Assembly: GCF_014596945.1 (NCBI RefSeq)
Contig: NZ_JACVXB010000003.1
Location: 434,001-498,000 of the forward strand
DNA: 64,000 nt
Direction: 5' to 3'
From: Aestuariibaculum sediminum
GTDB taxonomy: Bacteria > Bacteroidota > Bacteroidia > Flavobacteriales > Flavobacteriaceae
Shown here: positions 51,840-58,549 of the stretch, in pieces
Position numbering within the stretch: the stretch's first letter is position 1
Layout: each line of letters begins with the position of its first letter
The notes under the pieces: model-generated
Told to the model about the DNA's origin: nothing
Databases searched by the model: none
The model's input: the letters and a program-made list of their open reading frames with translations, nothing else
Made by a program: the position numbers and the translations under genes

Positions 51840-52814
51840 TTACTTCTCTGGAAAACCATTTAAACTTAAAGTTTCAAATTCATGATTGTTATTTTCAAAA
51901 ATTAAGAACACTTTTAGCTCTGGGTGGGACGCTAAAAATGATTTTATATTATCGATACCCATCGCTTTAAAAGCTGTCGCGTACGCATCGGCTGTCATAC
52001 AATCTTCTGCAATCACCGAAACACTTAGCAAATTTGTTTTACTCGGATACCCCGTTTTAGTATTAATAATATGTGCGTATTTATTCCCCTTATCATCAAC
52101 TTTAAACTTTCGGTAAGTTCCAGAAGTTGCCATTGCTTCATCCTTTAAGGTAATTGCCTTTAAGATCGACTGTGAGCCATCAAAATGAGGCTGCTCTACT
52201 CCTACTTTCCAAGGCAGCTGCTTTTCAATGTTTGTTCCTCGAGTTCGAATTTCCCCTCCTATTTCTACCAAATAATTCGTTATTTGTTTGCTTTCTAAAA
52301 ACTGGCCAATAACATCTACACCATACCCCTTGGCTATGGCATTAAAATCTATATAAGTTCCCTTAGGCTTATATAAAGTAGTGTCTTCTAGTTTTGCTTT
52401 ATGAAAACCAACCGAGAGCATTAAACTATCTATTTTAAGACTGTCGAGATTTACTATTTTCCCTTCAGGACCAAAATCCCAGGCATTAACTAAAGCTCCA
52501 ATAGTTGGATCGAAGGCGCCATGAGTTTGTTCATAGATTATTTTTGAAGCATTAAAAACGGTTTTAAAATGCGCATCGACCAAACTATCTTCATTTCGAT
52601 TAATTTTAGAAATATCAGAAGTAGATATATAGGTTGACATCGACTTATTGATTACTGAAAACAAACTATCAAATTGAGGCTGATAATTTACTTCTGAATC
52701 GTATAAAACTGAATAAGTCGTACCAAAAACAGCCCCTCGTAGTTTTGTGTTTTTAACGGGCGTGGTGCAAGACAAAAAGAGTGCTGCTATAATGGACGCT
52801 AAAAAGAATTTCAT
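51840..52814 (-). CDS. apbE: FAD:protein FMN transferase (lipoprotein)
   Basis: The enzyme attaches FMN covalently to Thr/Ser of exported flavoproteins such as NqrB/NqrC and RnfG. The 324 residues begin with a lipoprotein signal (LFLSC, Cys at about 16), then show FGTTYSVLYDSE, STYISTSDISKINR, DPTIGALVNAWDFG, IDFNAIAKGYGVDVIG, NYLVEIGGEIRTRG and CMTADAYATAFKAMG, the ApbE order. It acts in the periplasm. It directly follows a small gene, with no gap. No Nqr or Rnf genes lie in this window. Confidence 0.94.
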   Translation of the reverse strand: MKFFLASIIAALFLSCTTPVKNTKLRGAVFGTTYSVLYDSEVNYQPQFDSLFSVINKSMSTYISTSDISKINRNEDSLVDAHFKTVFNASKIIYEQTHGAFDPTIGALVNAWDFGPEGKIVNLDSLKIDSLMLSVGFHKAKLEDTTLYKPKGTYIDFNAIAKGYGVDVIGQFLESKQITNYLVEIGGEIRTRGTNIEKQLPWKVGVEQPHFDGSQSILKAITLKDEAMATSGTYRKFKVDDKGNKYAHIINTKTGYPSKTNLLSVSVIAEDCMTADAYATAFKAMGIDNIKSFLASHPELKVFLIFENNNHEFETLSLNGFPEK

Positions 52815-53192
52815 TTAATTAAGATTTGTTTCAATAACCTGAATGCCATTATATTCCATTAAATATTCCTGATTTAGATAAATAGGCATTTTTTCACCTT
52901 CAACATTACCTATACCTACACCAGCATATAAGACTTTCGCATTTTTTTCGCGTGCATGCTCTTTAAAGGTTTCCATCCAAACCACATCGTAATTGTTCGG
53001 GTTATCTGGTAAAATAACCGCTCGAACTATAACAAAATAATACTGGCTATTTTTATCAATACACACAAATTGGGGATACTTTTTAAGTTTACTATTTACC
53101 GCTATAAATTCAAAACCACGCTGCTCAAGGTCTTTTCCAACGTGATTCATAGCTAAATTATGCAAATCTTGTTCTGTTAATGGTTTACTCAT
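52815..53192 (-). CDS. Uncharacterised conserved protein paired with apbE
   Basis: The 125-residue soluble protein has no signal or membrane helix. Its sequence suggests a mixed alpha/beta fold (about residues 20-122, with YPQFVCIDKNSQYYFVIVRA and MPIYLNQEYLMEYN). I recall related flavobacterial proteins labelled as NADH-quinone reductase subunit F, but no ferredoxin, FAD or NAD motif is visible here, so I do not support that name. Its stop abuts the apbE start, so the two are one operon and it may relate to flavoprotein maturation. Confidence 0.75.
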   Translation of the reverse strand: MSKPLTEQDLHNLAMNHVGKDLEQRGFEFIAVNSKLKKYPQFVCIDKNSQYYFVIVRAVILPDNPNNYDVVWMETFKEHAREKNAKVLYAGVGIGNVEGEKMPIYLNQEYLMEYNGIQVIETNLN

Positions 53193-53313
53193 AGCACAAA
53201 AATAATATTAAAATTCCGCCCACCCTAAAATTAAAAAATGTTTAACTTTAAAGCACTTACTAATTATATCCTTATTATTATTGACCGCTTTTTTTTTGTA
53301 AAAAAACTCAATT

Positions 53314-54753
53314 ATGCCACACCACCCAATATCGAAACGCATAGGACTTATACTTGGTCCATTACTGTTTATATGTTTTAATATTATTTCAATTCATTCG
53401 ATTTCCGAACATGCCAATTATGTCATAGCAACAGCAATTTGGATGATCTGTTGGTGGATTACTGAAGCTGTATCTATTTCGGTTACAGCACTCCTTCCTT
53501 TGCTTATCTTCCCTTTATTCAAAATCATGCCACTGGCCGATGTTGGGGCTAATTATGGGAGTCCGATTATCTTTTTATTTTTTGGTGGATTTGTATTAGC
53601 ATTAGCTCTCGAAAAAGTAAACCTTCATAAACGTATTGCGTTAACGATTATAAATAAAACAGGTTCCACCCCAAACCGTGTCATACTAGGGTTTATGATT
53701 GCAACCGGATTTATGAGCATGTGGATTAGTAATACAGCCAGTACTGTCGTGATGTTACCCATCGCACTTTCGGTTATTCACCTCTTAATAAATGATCGGG
53801 ATGGATATACAAAAAATGATAAAAATTTTGCTTTAAGTGTGATGCTAGGCATCGCCTTTTCTGCAAATGCAGGGGGTATAGCCACTGTTATTGGAACACC
53901 GCCAAATTCTGTTTTAATAGGTTTACTTGAAAACGAATATAACATCGAAATTTCCTTTTTAAAATGGATGATTATTGGTTTACCTTTTTCTATCATACTC
54001 ATAAGTATTATCTATTTGATAATGGTTAATGTGTTTTTTCCATGTCATAACTTAAAGTTTAATACAGAAAAAGATTTTATTGATAAGGAGCTGAAAAAAC
54101 TAGGTAAAACAAATCCCAGAGAAAAACAAGTACTTACCATATTTGCCATAACGGTTTCCCTATGGATTTTTAGAAGCTTGATAAACTCTTTAATTCCTTC
54201 TTTAGAACTTTCGGACACCATGATTAGCATGTTTGGAGCCATTGCGCTATTTGCTATTCCATATAATTTAAAACAAGGTGAATTTATACTAAATTGGAGT
54301 GACACTGAAAAACTGGCTTGGGGAATACTCATTTTATTTGGTGGCGGATTGGCATTAGCAAAAGGTATGTCAGCAACCGGAATCGTAGATATAGTTGCAA
54401 ATACCATTGCTACGAGTAATATAAGTATTCTGGTAATGGCTTCCCTGCTTATCATTCTGATGCTTTTTATGACAGAACTGATGAGCAATGTTGCGTTAAC
54501 GGCAGTCCTTGCTCCAGTGGTTGCCGGTATTGCTATCGGTTTGGATATTCCAATGCTTTATTTACTTATTCCTGTTACCATCGCCAGCAGCTGCGCTTTT
54601 ATGCTTCCCATGGCAACACCACCAAACGCAATAGTTTTTGCTAGTGGTTTTGTTAAGGTAAAAGATATGGCTAAAGCGGGTATTGTTTTAAACCTTATTT
54701 CTGTAATATTGCTTATAATTCTTTTTAAATGGATATTGCCTTTAGTTTTTTAA
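53314..54753 (+). CDS. SLC13/DASS-family sodium-coupled anion transporter
   Basis: The 479-residue membrane protein has about 11-12 hydrophobic segments and the two DASS hairpin motifs: SMWISNTASTVVMLPIA (SNT motif, about 130-145) and MTELMSNVALTAVLAPV near 390-405 (second motif, SNV here). The length and the phrase WWITEAVSISVTALLPLLIFP fit bacterial dicarboxylate/sulfate:Na+ symporters. The substrate could be succinate-like dicarboxylates, citrate or sulfate. Not in an operon with metabolic genes; the DUF6090 array follows after 74 bases. Confidence 0.9.
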   Translation: MPHHPISKRIGLILGPLLFICFNIISIHSISEHANYVIATAIWMICWWITEAVSISVTALLPLLIFPLFKIMPLADVGANYGSPIIFLFFGGFVLALALEKVNLHKRIALTIINKTGSTPNRVILGFMIATGFMSMWISNTASTVVMLPIALSVIHLLINDRDGYTKNDKNFALSVMLGIAFSANAGGIATVIGTPPNSVLIGLLENEYNIEISFLKWMIIGLPFSIILISIIYLIMVNVFFPCHNLKFNTEKDFIDKELKKLGKTNPREKQVLTIFAITVSLWIFRSLINSLIPSLELSDTMISMFGAIALFAIPYNLKQGEFILNWSDTEKLAWGILILFGGGLALAKGMSATGIVDIVANTIATSNISILVMASLLIILMLFMTELMSNVALTAVLAPVVAGIAIGLDIPMLYLLIPVTIASSCAFMLPMATPPNAIVFASGFVKVKDMAKAGIVLNLISVILLIILFKWILPLVF

Positions 54754-54792
54754 TTTTTTAGTAAAGTGTAACAAAACGTAAGAATAATACAC

Positions 54793-54809
54793 TAACTTAC
54801 AATAAGTTA
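54793..54809. promoter_or_regulatory. 17-bp palindrome upstream of the DUF6090 array
   Basis: TAACTTA (54793-54799), a 3-base spacer CAA and TAAGTTA (54803-54809) form a perfect inverted repeat 18 bases before the first ATG of the array. It could be an operator; no binding protein is known. The 3-base loop and lack of a T tract make it a poor terminator. Confidence 0.4.
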
Positions 54810-54827
54810 CTCCTTTTAAAAAAATAA

Positions 54828-55589
54828 ATGCTAAAACTTTTTAGAAATATCCGTAGATCTCTTATCAACGAAGGCAATACCAATAGATATTTAAAATATG
54901 CATTTGGAGAAATTGTTTTGGTAGTTATAGGTATTCTTATTGCATTACAAATTAATAACTGGAATGAGGTTAGAAAAAACCATAACGAAGAAAAAGTTAT
55001 TCTAAAAAGTCTGCAAGAGAATTTAGTTCTGGCAAAAAAGCACTCAGAATTATTAATATTAAATGAAAAACAGTTAAAAACATCCTTACTTCTTGTTCTT
55101 AACATAAATTACACCTCTCAAAACGCTGAAATAACAATAATTTCAGACTCTATTTTTAATGATGCTTTATGGAACTTAGAAAGCGACCTTCCTATACTAA
55201 ATATTTACAATAACCTAAAATTCACTAACAAACTTAGTCTTATTAGAAACCTAAGACTTAAAGAGAAATTCGCAAATTTTGAAGCCGATTTAAAAGAATT
55301 GGATAATATGATAGAAGATAGATTGAATGTACAACAAATTCGGATTGATGCTATTGTCGAAAATGATTTAAACTTTGTTCCCTTAATAAAATCTAACGTC
55401 CCTGAAATTAATATAGAAAACGAGTCAAAAAACGATTACTCACAAATACTTAACAATAGAAGAATAAGAAATCTTTTGTCTATAAAATTAACGATGACCC
55501 AAGATGTTATTAAATATAGAGAAACACTTAATAACGAAATAAAATCACTAATAACAGCCATAACATCTGAATTGAAGAAACTCAAATAA
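54828..55589 (+). CDS. DUF6090 family membrane protein (array copy 1)
   Basis: The 253-residue protein has the family head: a basic amphipathic N-terminus (MLKLFRNIRRSLINEGN), a short membrane helix at about 29-43 (IVLVVIGILIALQI) and INNWNE. A mainly helical, charged tail follows (about 50-253). Positive residues before the helix place the N-terminus inside and the tail in the periplasm. Function unknown. The head is shared with three more genes and a relic downstream, but the tails do not align by eye. Copy 2 starts 10 bases after this stop, unlike the overlapping junctions further on. Confidence 0.88.
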   Translation: MLKLFRNIRRSLINEGNTNRYLKYAFGEIVLVVIGILIALQINNWNEVRKNHNEEKVILKSLQENLVLAKKHSELLILNEKQLKTSLLLVLNINYTSQNAEITIISDSIFNDALWNLESDLPILNIYNNLKFTNKLSLIRNLRLKEKFANFEADLKELDNMIEDRLNVQQIRIDAIVENDLNFVPLIKSNVPEINIENESKNDYSQILNNRRIRNLLSIKLTMTQDVIKYRETLNNEIKSLITAITSELKKLK

Positions 55590-55599
55590 AGTCATACAA

Positions 55600-56367
55600 A
55601 TGATTAAATTCTTTCGAAACATCCGTAGAACACTTCTTAACGAAGGTAAAACCAATAAGTATATAAAATATGCTATTGGCGAAATTGTGCTTGTAGTTAT
55701 AGGCATTCTTATCGCTTTGCAAATTAATAATTGGAATGAGAATCGAAAAACCACAAATAAAACCCAGAAATACTATCATGGAATCCTCTCGGAATTAAAA
55801 GTAACTGCAAATGCTATAGAAGATTTTCAAATTTATTTAGATTCTACAATTCAAAAAAACAAAAAAATCTTGCAAATTATAAACAGTAAGAATCAGGACT
55901 CTCTTCTCCTTTTAGAACATTTATTAGGGGAGATTGCACTTGCAAATGGTCTACCAGTAAATTTATCGCTACCTATAACAGATGAGTTTATAAATCAAGA
56001 CTTACAAAGTCAGATTAAAAACGACTCTCTAAGAAGGAGTTTTTGGCGTTTTATTTATGCAAGAAAGTTTATTAATTCAGTAGGAAAATACAGCGAAAAC
56101 CAATATGCAACCAGTATAGAACCTTACTATATAAAACACATAAATTATAGCCAAATAGCAATTACTAAATATAAAAAAGGCTTAGTAAAAGGAGGACCAA
56201 ACACAGATTATAAAGCCCTTGGGGCATCCTTGGAGTTTTGGAATATTGCCTCCTTAAAACTAGAATCTTATACCGCGGAAAAAGAAGTTTTGGATAATTT
56301 TATATCAAGAATAAATACGCTTATAAAAATTATTGAGAGTGAATTAAAACAAGACTCTCATGATTAA
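55600..56367 (+). CDS. DUF6090 family membrane protein (array copy 2)
   Basis: The 255-residue protein starts MIKFFRNIRRTLLNEGKTNK, with the same membrane helix (AIGEIVLVVIGILIALQ) and INNWNENRK. The tail is helical, with a KILQIINSKNQDSLLLLEHL stretch and a basic region at about 180-190. It ends ...KQDSHD, where the last codons and stop are part of the next gene's ATGATTAA start. Reading N-in, the tail would be outside. Function unknown. Confidence 0.88.
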   Translation: MIKFFRNIRRTLLNEGKTNKYIKYAIGEIVLVVIGILIALQINNWNENRKTTNKTQKYYHGILSELKVTANAIEDFQIYLDSTIQKNKKILQIINSKNQDSLLLLEHLLGEIALANGLPVNLSLPITDEFINQDLQSQIKNDSLRRSFWRFIYARKFINSVGKYSENQYATSIEPYYIKHINYSQIAITKYKKGLVKGGPNTDYKALGASLEFWNIASLKLESYTAEKEVLDNFISRINTLIKIIESELKQDSHD

Positions 56368-57058
56368 ATTCTTTAAAAACTTTAGAAAAACGCTTATCAA
56401 CGAAGGCAAAACCACCAAATACTTTAAATATGCCATTGGCGAAATTGTGCTTGTAGTTATTGGAATTCTTATTGCCTTGCAGATTAATAACTGGAATGAA
56501 AACCGATTAACCAAAATAGTAAAGAGCAACTATTTAAAGCAAATAAAAGCCGAACTTATACTAGATGTTACTAATTTTAAGAAAGATATTCGCTCAATAA
56601 AAACCTACACAGAATACCTTAATAAGGTTAGCGAAGGAAACTATAATAACATAGACTTATCGCTTTTACTTAATTACTTATGTAGAAATCTTGAGCCTGG
56701 AAATTGCGGAATCTCATTTAATAAAATGCTAGAATCCAACACGTTCGAAGAAATCGATGGTGAAACAATAAAAGAAAAACTACAAACATATTATTTAACC
56801 AATTGTGCCGAGTACAACAATTTAACTGCATTTCATTCTAAATTTATTTCCGAAAATATTGAAGGACCACTTCTATTAATCTTGAATCATAAAAAGGGAT
56901 TTCTTGTTGACCCAAAGGAGGTGATTGAACAGCTGGAAGTTGGAAAGTTAAAATCTATGATTAACTGGCAAATCTCTTATCTAAATTACTACATACCTTC
57001 AATTAACAAAAATATTAGCCTGGCAGAAGAATTAATTCAATTAATAAACCATGATTAA
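56360..57058 (+). CDS. DUF6090 family membrane protein (array copy 3)
   Basis: The 232-residue protein has the family head (MIKFFKNFRKTLINEGKTTK, helix at about 29-43, INNWNENRL). The tail has several Cys residues (LCRNLEPGNC and TNCAEYNN), unlike the other copies, and helical segments. It starts inside the previous gene's end (8-base overlap) and ends ...INHD with its stop inside the next start. From 56424 to 56476 its DNA is identical to copy 4. Function unknown. Confidence 0.88.
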   Translation: MIKFFKNFRKTLINEGKTTKYFKYAIGEIVLVVIGILIALQINNWNENRLTKIVKSNYLKQIKAELILDVTNFKKDIRSIKTYTEYLNKVSEGNYNNIDLSLLLNYLCRNLEPGNCGISFNKMLESNTFEEIDGETIKEKLQTYYLTNCAEYNNLTAFHSKFISENIEGPLLLILNHKKGFLVDPKEVIEQLEVGKLKSMINWQISYLNYYIPSINKNISLAEELIQLINHD

Positions 57059-57851
57059 ATTCTTTAGAAACATTAGAAAAACGTTTATCAATGAAGGCAA
57101 AACCACCAAATACATTAAATATGCCATTGGCGAAATTGTGCTTGTAGTTATTGGAATTCTTATTGCCCTTCAAATTAATAACTGGAATGAAATAAGCAAA
57201 GAAAAACAACTCGAAGCATTGTACCTAAAAAATATGTTGAATGATCTTAAAGACCAAAAAAACTCCATAGAAACTCAAATCGATTATGAAAAATCTTTTT
57301 TTAAAGCTAGTAACACCATCATAAAAAACTACCAACAGGACAACACTTTAAAAATTGACAGTATGTTTTTTAAACATGCTACTATTTTAGCTTCAAGAAA
57401 AACCTTTATAATTACAGATCCCACATATACCGATTTAATATCTTCTGGAAATATTAACGTATTAAAAAACGTAGAATTTAAAAAACGGCTCATTAATTAT
57501 TATCAAGAGTTAAAGCGAATAGAAAAGGTTATACATAACAATAACGCTTTATTGGTAGACCAGAACTATTTATTCAACTATAATAAAATTGGTTACTGGT
57601 ATGAACCTAATATTATTGAATATGATAGTACAAATAATATATTAGATGAGGGTATAACAATACAAAATTATCAAACAGAACTTCAGGATTTATCTAAAAA
57701 GCAATTATTAAAAGGTGAAAACAAACTTGTTTTCATGAATGCTATTTATTTAAGAAATACAATCGCATTAGGAAATTTCGAATTTTTAAAAGAAATCCAG
57801 TACAGTACTCAATCTCTAATTACAGATTTAAAAAAGTTAAATAATGATTAA
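57051..57851 (+). CDS. DUF6090 family membrane protein (array copy 4)
   Basis: The 266-residue protein has the head MIKFFRNIRKTFINEGKTTK, helix at about 29-43 and INNWNEISK, then a helical tail with an NMLNDLKDQKNSIETQID coiled-coil-like start and DPTYTDLISSGNINVL near 125. It ends ...KKLNND with the same 8-base overlap onto the relic fifth copy. The 53 bases at 57115-57167 are identical to copy 3 while the tails do not align by eye. Function unknown. Confidence 0.88.
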   Translation: MIKFFRNIRKTFINEGKTTKYIKYAIGEIVLVVIGILIALQINNWNEISKEKQLEALYLKNMLNDLKDQKNSIETQIDYEKSFFKASNTIIKNYQQDNTLKIDSMFFKHATILASRKTFIITDPTYTDLISSGNINVLKNVEFKKRLINYYQELKRIEKVIHNNNALLVDQNYLFNYNKIGYWYEPNIIEYDSTNNILDEGITIQNYQTELQDLSKKQLLKGENKLVFMNAIYLRNTIALGNFEFLKEIQYSTQSLITDLKKLNND

Positions 57852-58062
57852 ATTTTTTAGAAACATTCGCAAATCCCTTATCCAAAAAGGCAAAACTAAA
57901 AAATAGATTGATTATATATTTAAAAGCGAAGACCATCTTAAAAAATGCGTAAGCTTCTTAATTTATAGCAAATATAATTATCTCCCTATGCTAGAATACT
58001 ACCAAAAAACAGCGGTTGATATTTTAAAGACTTTAGATGAAAAACTAGAACAATCCCCTTAG
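57844..58062 (+). pseudogene. Decayed fifth DUF6090 copy
   Basis: ATG 57844 begins MIKFFRNIRKSLIQKGKTKK, the family head, and stops at TAG (57904-57906). In the same frame a further 51 codons (KSEDHLKKCVSFLIYSKYN..., ending DILKTLDEKLEQSP) resemble the C-terminal helix of DUF6090 tails. The membrane helix and most of the tail are gone. The first bases may be kept only because they carry the end of copy 4. Confidence 0.8.
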
Positions 58063-58090
58063 TGTAACACATTTTTCATTAACTTTAAGT

Positions 58091-58549
58091 ATGAAAACAT
58101 TAAATACTCGTTTAGATAACGCCATAAAAAAATTATACACGGCATTTCACAACAACACGCTTCATCCAGAATGTTGCAAACAATGTGCTGTTGGAAATAT
58201 TTTAGACAATTCCGATAGTTGGAAACACTTTTCAGATGAACATGGCTCTACAAAATTAAATTATGTTGGTCGAGTTAATGAAGCCTTCGGAAAACGTTTT
58301 AATGGTTATACACCTTCAGAATTATTACAAATAGAAGTTACTTTTTTAAAAGCTTGCGGATATCAACTTCCAATTCATTATAAAAACACAAAACCCGACA
58401 CGCCAACCGATAAAGATGTATTATTTAATGGTTTACAAGCTGTTATTGAGTTTCTTTGTAAATTAGATAATAATCTAAACGTGATGGATTACACTAAAAT
58501 TTTTGACAAAATTAAATGTGATTTTATAGAAAAATCACCTGTAAAATAA
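58091..58549 (+). CDS. Uncharacterised conserved cytoplasmic protein with a CCxxC motif
   Basis: The 152-residue protein has no signal or membrane helix. Its N-terminal part has HPECCKQCAVGNILDNSDSW (about 26-45) with a CCxxC that could bind a metal. A helical region follows (RVNEAFGKRFNGYTPSELLQ, GLQAVIEFLCKLD). I recall similar flavobacterial proteins called NADH-quinone reductase subunit F, but no cofactor motif of NqrF is present, so I do not use that name. The gene follows the DUF6090 relic by 28 bases. Function unknown. Confidence 0.75.
   Translation: MKTLNTRLDNAIKKLYTAFHNNTLHPECCKQCAVGNILDNSDSWKHFSDEHGSTKLNYVGRVNEAFGKRFNGYTPSELLQIEVTFLKACGYQLPIHYKNTKPDTPTDKDVLFNGLQAVIEFLCKLDNNLNVMDYTKIFDKIKCDFIEKSPVK

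Follow-up and report, generated by a model that had tools for sequence, protein, structure and literature searches.

Rows of accessory genes with a changeable order are known from integron gene-cassette arrays, and the pilS-type pilin and surface-antigen cassettes of Neisseria combine a conserved start with a variable rest and are exchanged by homologous recombination. In Vibrio cholerae, orphan immunity gene arrays lie 3' of type VI secretion system (T6SS) clusters and match known effector-immunity pairs (PMC5361080). The genes described here belong to the DUF6090 family and form an array in a 64,000-nucleotide stretch of Aestuariibaculum sediminum DNA (contig NZ_JACVXB010000003.1, positions 434,001 to 498,000; hereafter, the window), in which four intact genes are followed by one broken copy, all in head-to-tail order on the + strand (54828-58062). 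The V. cholerae arrays may be the nearest described behavior: they also consist of accessory genes in rows, with horizontal transfer and frequent homologous recombination; DUF6090 genes differ in sharing a recombining, coding membrane head, for which no counterpart is apparent in the V. cholerae account (PMC5361080). No effector or T6SS gene was recognized among three neighbors in the window or in the 25 of 50 families listed for 56 of 67 in-array proteins of other loci, the genomes not having been scanned for T6SS. Like integron cassettes, DUF6090 genes stand in rows, some of them behind a repeated element, but no integrase exceeds the cut-off in five genomes, and half of the clear break points fall in the coding head. 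Unlike Neisseria pilS cassettes, DUF6090 copies are complete genes in one row, purifying selection acts on their tails, and the part that becomes overwritten is the start.

With moderate confidence, we propose that DUF6090 genes encode accessory membrane proteins whose heads recombine and whose tails are preserved, and that arrays grow via head homology; that the outcome is a defence-like repertoire is much less certain. The products would be accessory single-pass inner-membrane proteins in which a shared head of about 47 codons, comprising a basic helix and a membrane helix, anchors a helical domain. Comparison of the copies shows that genes with unrelated tails exchange DNA through the head, which is repeatedly overwritten or swapped. 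The tails, in turn, are stable lineages on which purifying selection acts; they recur in several genomes, attached to different heads and mostly next to other neighbors. Arrays would then grow by homologous recombination through the heads, partly between species, and this growth would leave each genome with tails that are largely non-redundant, in tightly packed or overlapping genes.

Loci were sampled as the best 80 matches to copy 4 of the window array, a choice that favors copy-4 relatives; many are drafts or metagenome bins, and the head search overlooks variant heads. From 440 head open reading frames, 22 were removed as duplicates and 25 as incomplete or weak-headed, which left 393 genes; removing 2 genes of a contig present twice and adding 100 genes of genomes G134 and G487 gave 491.

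Replacement of heads is apparent in 40 close pairs of genes, one of them within a genome, that a nucleotide filter selected for tails at least 0.80 identical in DNA. The head (nucleotides 16-120) is less similar than the tail (nucleotides 151-600) in 37 of these pairs, with mean nucleotide identities of 0.769 and 0.901. Synonymous divergence (dS) is greater in the head in 36 of the 40, when 10 saturated heads are counted as greater, and the median dS is 1.01 for heads, with the saturated heads left out, and 0.40 for tails. The original prediction had called for a comparison of synonymous divergence in head and tail; in these close pairs, the heads are the more diverged part. In 80 control pairs drawn from other genes of the same loci, the start is nearly as similar as the body (0.843 versus 0.851). 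The deficit at the start is 0.007 in control pairs, versus 0.132 in DUF6090 pairs, and it exceeds 0.1 in 5 of 80 and 23 of 40 pairs, respectively. Clear change points with the more diverged side toward the head were found in 20 pairs, of which 10 fall at nucleotides 121-133, where the head ends with INNWNE, 7 at nucleotides 58-100, and 3 at nucleotides 193-211. The cleanest case is a pair of copies from a single Winogradskyella ouciana array, which differ at 16 positions within nucleotides 1-123 and at 3 across the other 630 nucleotides. Over the long term, heads are kept by protein conservation and look constant; over the short term, they are the part that is replaced.

Exact tracts within heads also point to recombination. 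Copies 3 and 4 of the window share 53 identical nucleotides that begin at nucleotide 65 of each gene, precisely where the original prediction had placed them. In the first 48 codons, 38 of the 41 same-residue codons of this pair are identical, compared with 21-26 of 34-41 in the other five window pairs; codon usage alone predicts an identity of 0.477 in this array. Among gene pairs with unrelated tails, exact head tracts of at least 50 nucleotides occur in 14 of 4594 pairs within genomes, the window's tract being one of the 14, and in 2 of 91632 pairs between genomes. To judge from the rarity of such tracts, the identity of copies 3 and 4 is not due to chance, and the gene conversion that had been suggested for the head is upheld. 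The tracts shared by unrelated-tail genes range from 53 to 103 nucleotides. In codon counts restricted to the 366 genes free of head insertions, head codon identity between genes with unrelated tails is 0.498 within genomes and 0.451 between genomes. At the protein level, 13 head residues, including E28, G35 and A39, are invariant in 47 sequences.

Some heads carry in-frame insertions (for example SPAGQAG, LPASKGG and GKPALPVGR), mostly just before the membrane helix, as seen in L033, L017, L018, L047, L013 and G487_73197; these are possibly a small mobile palindromic repeat. In a truncated copy (L028:11497-11655), the head continues into the peptide CHSDRAKRRGISSDISQSSLYTTFRNDL, which resembles a translated genomic repeat.

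The tails have the character of old modules. No blastp match at E 1e-3 links the four window tails, in keeping with the initial impression that they do not align by eye, although profiles reveal distant homology. A profile of the copy-4 tail matches the tails of copy 1 (E 5e-10) and copy 2 (E 1e-6) over almost their full length; copy 3 entered the copy-4 group only at the third iteration and stayed outside the groups built on copy 1 and on copy 2. On these profile matches, the four tails are distant homologues, and most tails form one superfamily, the copy-4 profile giving 341 domain matches with a median coverage of 0.97. Relatives of individual tails occur in other genomes: the copy-1 tail is 50-55% identical over about 200 amino acids to tails in a Maribacter (L063) and two bins (L035 and L031), the copy-2 tail has a relative at 41% (L045), and the copy-4 tail one at 39% (L026); those of the copy-3 tail reach only 22-25%. 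In the 40 close pairs, the ratio of nonsynonymous to synonymous divergence (dN/dS) of the tails is 0.12 at the median and 0.37 at most.

When tail groups are defined at 35% identity over 150 amino acids, the 491 tails fall into 257 groups, of which 93 are present in at least two genomes; repetition of a group inside one genome occurs in 13 cases. Among 319 neighbouring pairs, any tail match is found in 31, an identity of at least 35% in 5, and the highest identity is 59.9%. Likewise, of the 3486 pairs among the 84 tails of G134, 9 reach 35% over 150 amino acids. Redundancy of tails within genomes is below random expectation, with 19 pairs versus 31.7 at 35% identity and 2 versus 11.2 at 50%, a deficit that plain orthology without recent duplication might equally yield. 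On these sequence comparisons, the arrays look assembled from distinct tails and not from recent duplicates.

Near-identical tails recur mostly in different surroundings. In a set of 31 between-genome pairs with near-identical tails, picked by a codon filter, 31 of 39 scorable neighbor sides carry unrelated tails. Three Hanstruepera loci (L023, L029 and L078) have shared flanking genes that are 88-96% identical, and the neighbors of their shared tails mostly differ. Two comparisons of isolates cross genera: the L019/L042 tail is 86% identical in amino acids, versus a median of 76% for nine other shared genes, and the L015/L024 tail is 88% identical versus 69%, the latter value coming from two genes only. 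Such differences suggest that transfer of tails between genera is possible.

AlphaFold models were obtained for copy 1 (mean predicted local distance difference test, pLDDT, 88.7; predicted template modeling score, pTM, 0.74) and copy 4 (91.7 and 0.81), and the order of the main helices is alike in both. A helix at residues 2-14 is rich in basic residues, and a second predicted helix runs from residue 18 to about residue 90-97, so that it spans the membrane segment and enters the tail. Two more long helices and a small helical part complete this all-helical fold. Alignments and models agree in a short basic head, one membrane helix and a tail of about 200 amino acids. The helical domain of the tail probably lies in the periplasm. 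The predicted helices make the N-inside, tail-outside topology assumed at the outset plausible, although the orientation was taken from the charge rule only.

The least certain steps concern function. The heads may dock on a common membrane partner or pack against one another, perhaps through the invariant E28, G35 and A39, and each tail may recognize a different target, most likely within an immunity or defence repertoire; we regard this combination as doubtful. Immunity or defence is the function that we favor, although tentatively, on the grounds that the genes are accessory, all run in one direction, are largely non-redundant, and are shuffled with each tail preserved. It is conceivable, if short of likely, that the head both serves a common partner as membrane anchor and forms a patch of homology that captures unrelated periplasmic tails, also between species, so that large repertoires could arise without a dedicated recombinase. 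Pfam gives no function for DUF6090 (PF19578), in agreement with the earlier suspicion of an undescribed system. A search of open-access papers found none naming DUF6090, and among the papers listed on related ideas, none concerned this family by title or start of abstract. The array behavior, the head replacement and the tail repertoire come from the present comparisons.

A repeated element ending CCGTTGTGCTTCATTAT...AACCANTAACCA lies before the ATG, mostly 32-34 nucleotides upstream, in L038, L049, L070, L082, L096, L097, L113 and others. The pattern CGTTGTG[CG] is present within 120 nucleotides upstream of 20 of the 491 DUF6090 genes (17 of them at 32-34 nucleotides), versus about 1.2 expected. 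In the 4.1-Mb genome G134, the strict pattern occurs seven times, inside or beside DUF6090 regions, and a variant precedes two genes of congener L070; it was not found in the window genome or four congeners. An integron recombination site does not accompany each gene, the window genome being devoid of the strict pattern and the element standing at 20 of 491 genes. No integron integrase exceeded the TIGR02249 cut-off in any of five genomes (G000, G001, G003, G134 and G487). The region at 1.832-1.859 Mb of G134, where single genes follow one another mostly on the same strand, looks cassette-like.

The original prediction combined tandem duplication and gene conversion of heads with rapid, diversifying change of tails that face a changing partner. 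Near-identical heads beside tails without mutual blastp matches fit this model, and head conversion is borne out. The tails contradict it: their low dN/dS and their relatives in other genomes, such as those at 50-55% of the copy-1 tail in three genomes, lead us to reject rapid tail evolution for close pairs, where the model is largely refuted. Recent duplicates would also be expected, yet the tail identity of neighbors peaks at 59.9%, and with only 5 of 319 neighbouring pairs at 35% or above, plain tandem duplication is unsupported as the main mode of growth. We now consider the combined model improbable. Tails that are orthologous across species, which it had no place for, do exist, although the heads are not simply inherited alongside them. 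DUF6090 genes might instead be ordinary old paralogues whose heads are kept by purifying selection alone, with no special recombination. The 13 invariant head residues, as well as a head codon identity only modestly higher within genomes than between them, accord with this. However, purifying selection cannot make heads exceed tails in synonymous divergence, and such paralogy leaves unexplained both the exact tracts between unrelated-tail genes and the difference from control pairs; we judge it very improbable.

Site-specific movement is a further alternative, in which some DUF6090 genes would be single-gene cassettes, integron-like, behind a repeated element ending CGTTGTGC. The excess of CGTTGTG[CG] upstream of DUF6090 genes, its tie to DUF6090 regions in G134 and the variant at two L070 genes speak for such cassettes, but the window genome and its congeners lack the strict pattern, all five genomes lack an integrase over the cut-off, and half of the clear break points in close pairs lie in the coding head (nucleotides 121-133). 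This mode of movement seems unlikely. Somewhat unlikely, too, is that the proteins form a set of sensors or adaptors instead of an immunity repertoire, with the tail sensing a ligand and the head signaling to one common membrane protein. A single membrane helix predicted to be continuous with a helical tail, the invariant Glu and small residues within that helix, and the presence of sensor helical bundles among the fold matches would suit signaling; those matches are non-significant, only about 20 residues lie on the presumed cytoplasmic side, and no partner gene was found. Finally, because heads are repeats of about 140 nucleotides and several loci come from metagenome bins, short-read assemblies could have misjoined heads to tails. 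Many loci, however, are from isolate genomes, two single-contig genomes hold like arrays (only 1 of the 40 close pairs involves them), and break points within the head recur in pairs from several assemblies, so that an artefact of this kind is most improbable.

Several observations weigh against the proposal that heads recombine and tails are preserved. In 3 of the 40 close pairs, similarity is higher in the head than in the tail, and 20 of the 40 have no clear change point with a more diverged head side; moreover, these pairs share members and are thus non-independent, and the control pairs, with a body identity of 0.851, have diverged somewhat further than the DUF6090 tails (0.901). At the 3' junction, the identity of the next head over its first 30 nucleotides is 0.826 in 18 pairs versus a baseline of 0.764. 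In 218 tests, some of which may be one pair counted from both sides, the heads that accompany orthologous tails were not significantly less similar than heads of unrelated-tail genes in the same genome (p 0.14 for synonymous sites and 0.29 for amino acids). Related, homologous tails occupy 8 of the 39 scorable neighbor sides, within-genus descent with head conversion would account for many shared tails, and the case for between-genus transfer is based on few pairs, several others involving metagenome bins. On function, the copy-4 profile has no relative by sequence in PDB, and the models of copies 1 and 4 have no fold match there at E 0.001, the top matches being assorted helical bundles; copy 4 likewise has none among viral models at this threshold. 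The best match of the four window genes to PADLOC models has an E of 0.022, which does not amount to a match to known defence proteins. Nor is there an obvious partner gene near the arrays, the most widespread neighbor group being present in 11 loci.

The components of the window array are listed in Table 1. The prediction of four intact DUF6090 genes and a fifth relic with a common head agrees with the open reading frames, with a stop codon early in the relic, and with the Pfam scan of the four intact genes, all of which exceed the cut-off of 23.5 bits (25.3-45.6 bits). The PF19578 profile starts in the membrane helix, at residue 28, and extends into the tail. The second open piece of the broken copy has a weak DUF6090-tail match (phmmer E 2e-4; blastp best E 0.66), and the window genome has no DUF6090 copies beyond the four at E 0.001. 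Copies 2, 3 and 4 and the broken copy all start with ATGATTAAA, and copies 3 and 4 and the broken copy overlap the preceding gene by 8 bases. Direct reading shows stop codons in each of the two other frames of this shared start, so an out-of-phase upstream frame that enters it terminates within 8 bases. Among the 319 close neighbor pairs, 65 overlap by 8 nucleotides and 83 by 4; in 57 of the 65, the downstream gene begins ATGATTAA or ATGATTAG. A candidate box, TAnnTTTG, upstream of the first genes of arrays was dropped, as it is present in 2 of 124.

Table 1. Features of the DUF6090 array and its borders (positions in the window)
Feature	Position	Strand	Description
DUF6090 copy 1 (A)	54828..55589	+	253 aa (amino acids); head 54828-54968, tail from ~54969; Pfam PF19578 32.8 bits
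DUF6090 copy 2 (B)	55600..56367	+	255 aa; head 55600-55740; Pfam PF19578 28.7 bits
DUF6090 copy 3 (C)	56360..57058	+	232 aa; 8-nt (nucleotide) overlap with copy 2; head 56360-56500; 25.3 bits
DUF6090 copy 4 (D)	57051..57851	+	266 aa; 8-nt overlap with copy 3; head 57051-57191; 45.6 bits
Broken fifth copy	57844..58062	+	begins as a head; stop (TAG) at codon 21, followed by an open piece with weak likeness to a DUF6090 tail
53-nt tract, copy 3 head	56424..56476	+	identical to 57115..57167 (+), copy 4 head
Symporter, Pfam Na_sulph_symp	53314..54753	+	left border of array site
152-aa conserved gene	58091..58549	+	no Pfam match; right border of array site

The site between the symporter and the homologue of the 58091 gene is about 60 nucleotides long and without DUF6090 in four congeners; two of them, G001 and G003, carry DUF6090 elsewhere. 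Either the window species gained the array or the congeners lost it. The neighborhood at 51840-58549, with ApbE, a 125-amino-acid gene, the symporter and the 58091 gene, corresponds to a DUF6090 site that recurs in five other loci. These related sites, marked by the ApbE and 125-amino-acid genes, hold other sets of DUF6090 genes (L027, L031, L032, L044 and L048); among the genes listed for these sites, the symporter is absent from L027, L031 and L048, and the 58091 gene from L031 and L032. Only copy 1 has a good tail relative there (L031, 51.5%). The genes that follow in L027, L032 and L044 presumably encode NqrF and NqrE. Recurrence of the ApbE, 125-amino-acid and 58091 genes reflects the shared site.

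Other neighbors are varied. We take the group found in 11 loci to be DUF418-like because 2 of the 56 scanned proteins match DUF418. The interlopers within arrays, of which 56 of 67 proteins were scanned, are mixed and include, among the matches listed, four with a beta-lactamase fold, two SnoaL and two DUF998 proteins. Five of the 56 match DUF6090 itself, which implies that some copies escaped the head search. Candidate or known defence models of PADLOC are matched by single interlopers (PDC-M19, E 2e-127; PDC-M45, E 4e-13; and a few weaker), and no PADLOC model is matched by more than one interloper. No recurring partner, toxin or defence gene was found near the arrays.

DUF6090 genes are present in three of five genomes of the genus, including that of the window. 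Of the genomes sampled from the family Flavobacteriaceae, 158 of 249 carry them, and of those sampled from the phylum, 41 of 247; they are absent from all 14 control genomes. Copy number, which the original prediction proposed to survey, reaches 84 in one genome (G134). There, a block starting at 2823298 of C1 has 24 copies up to about 2842860 and 36 up to about 2855200 (about 32 kb). The longest arrays in the sampled loci have 19 units without a 300-nucleotide gap. A tblastn search with copy 4 as the only query covered 50,697 phage and 72,556 plasmid records, none of which matched. A DUF6090 gene also occurs outside Bacteroidota, in a contig labeled candidate division KSB1 (L081), which may be a binning error.

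That the starts of these genes are more diverged than their ends at silent sites is the reverse of what long-term conservation of the head would lead one to expect. DUF6090 arrays are therefore a natural system in which to measure how marine bacteria exchange genes and recombine over short homologies. Should the tails be modules of immunity or defence, a large repertoire would have been overlooked because each tail looks like an orphan. If a coding repeat does serve as a platform for exchange, flavobacteria would be able to build large, mostly non-redundant repertoires for periplasmic recognition, which may amount to 84 genes in one genome.

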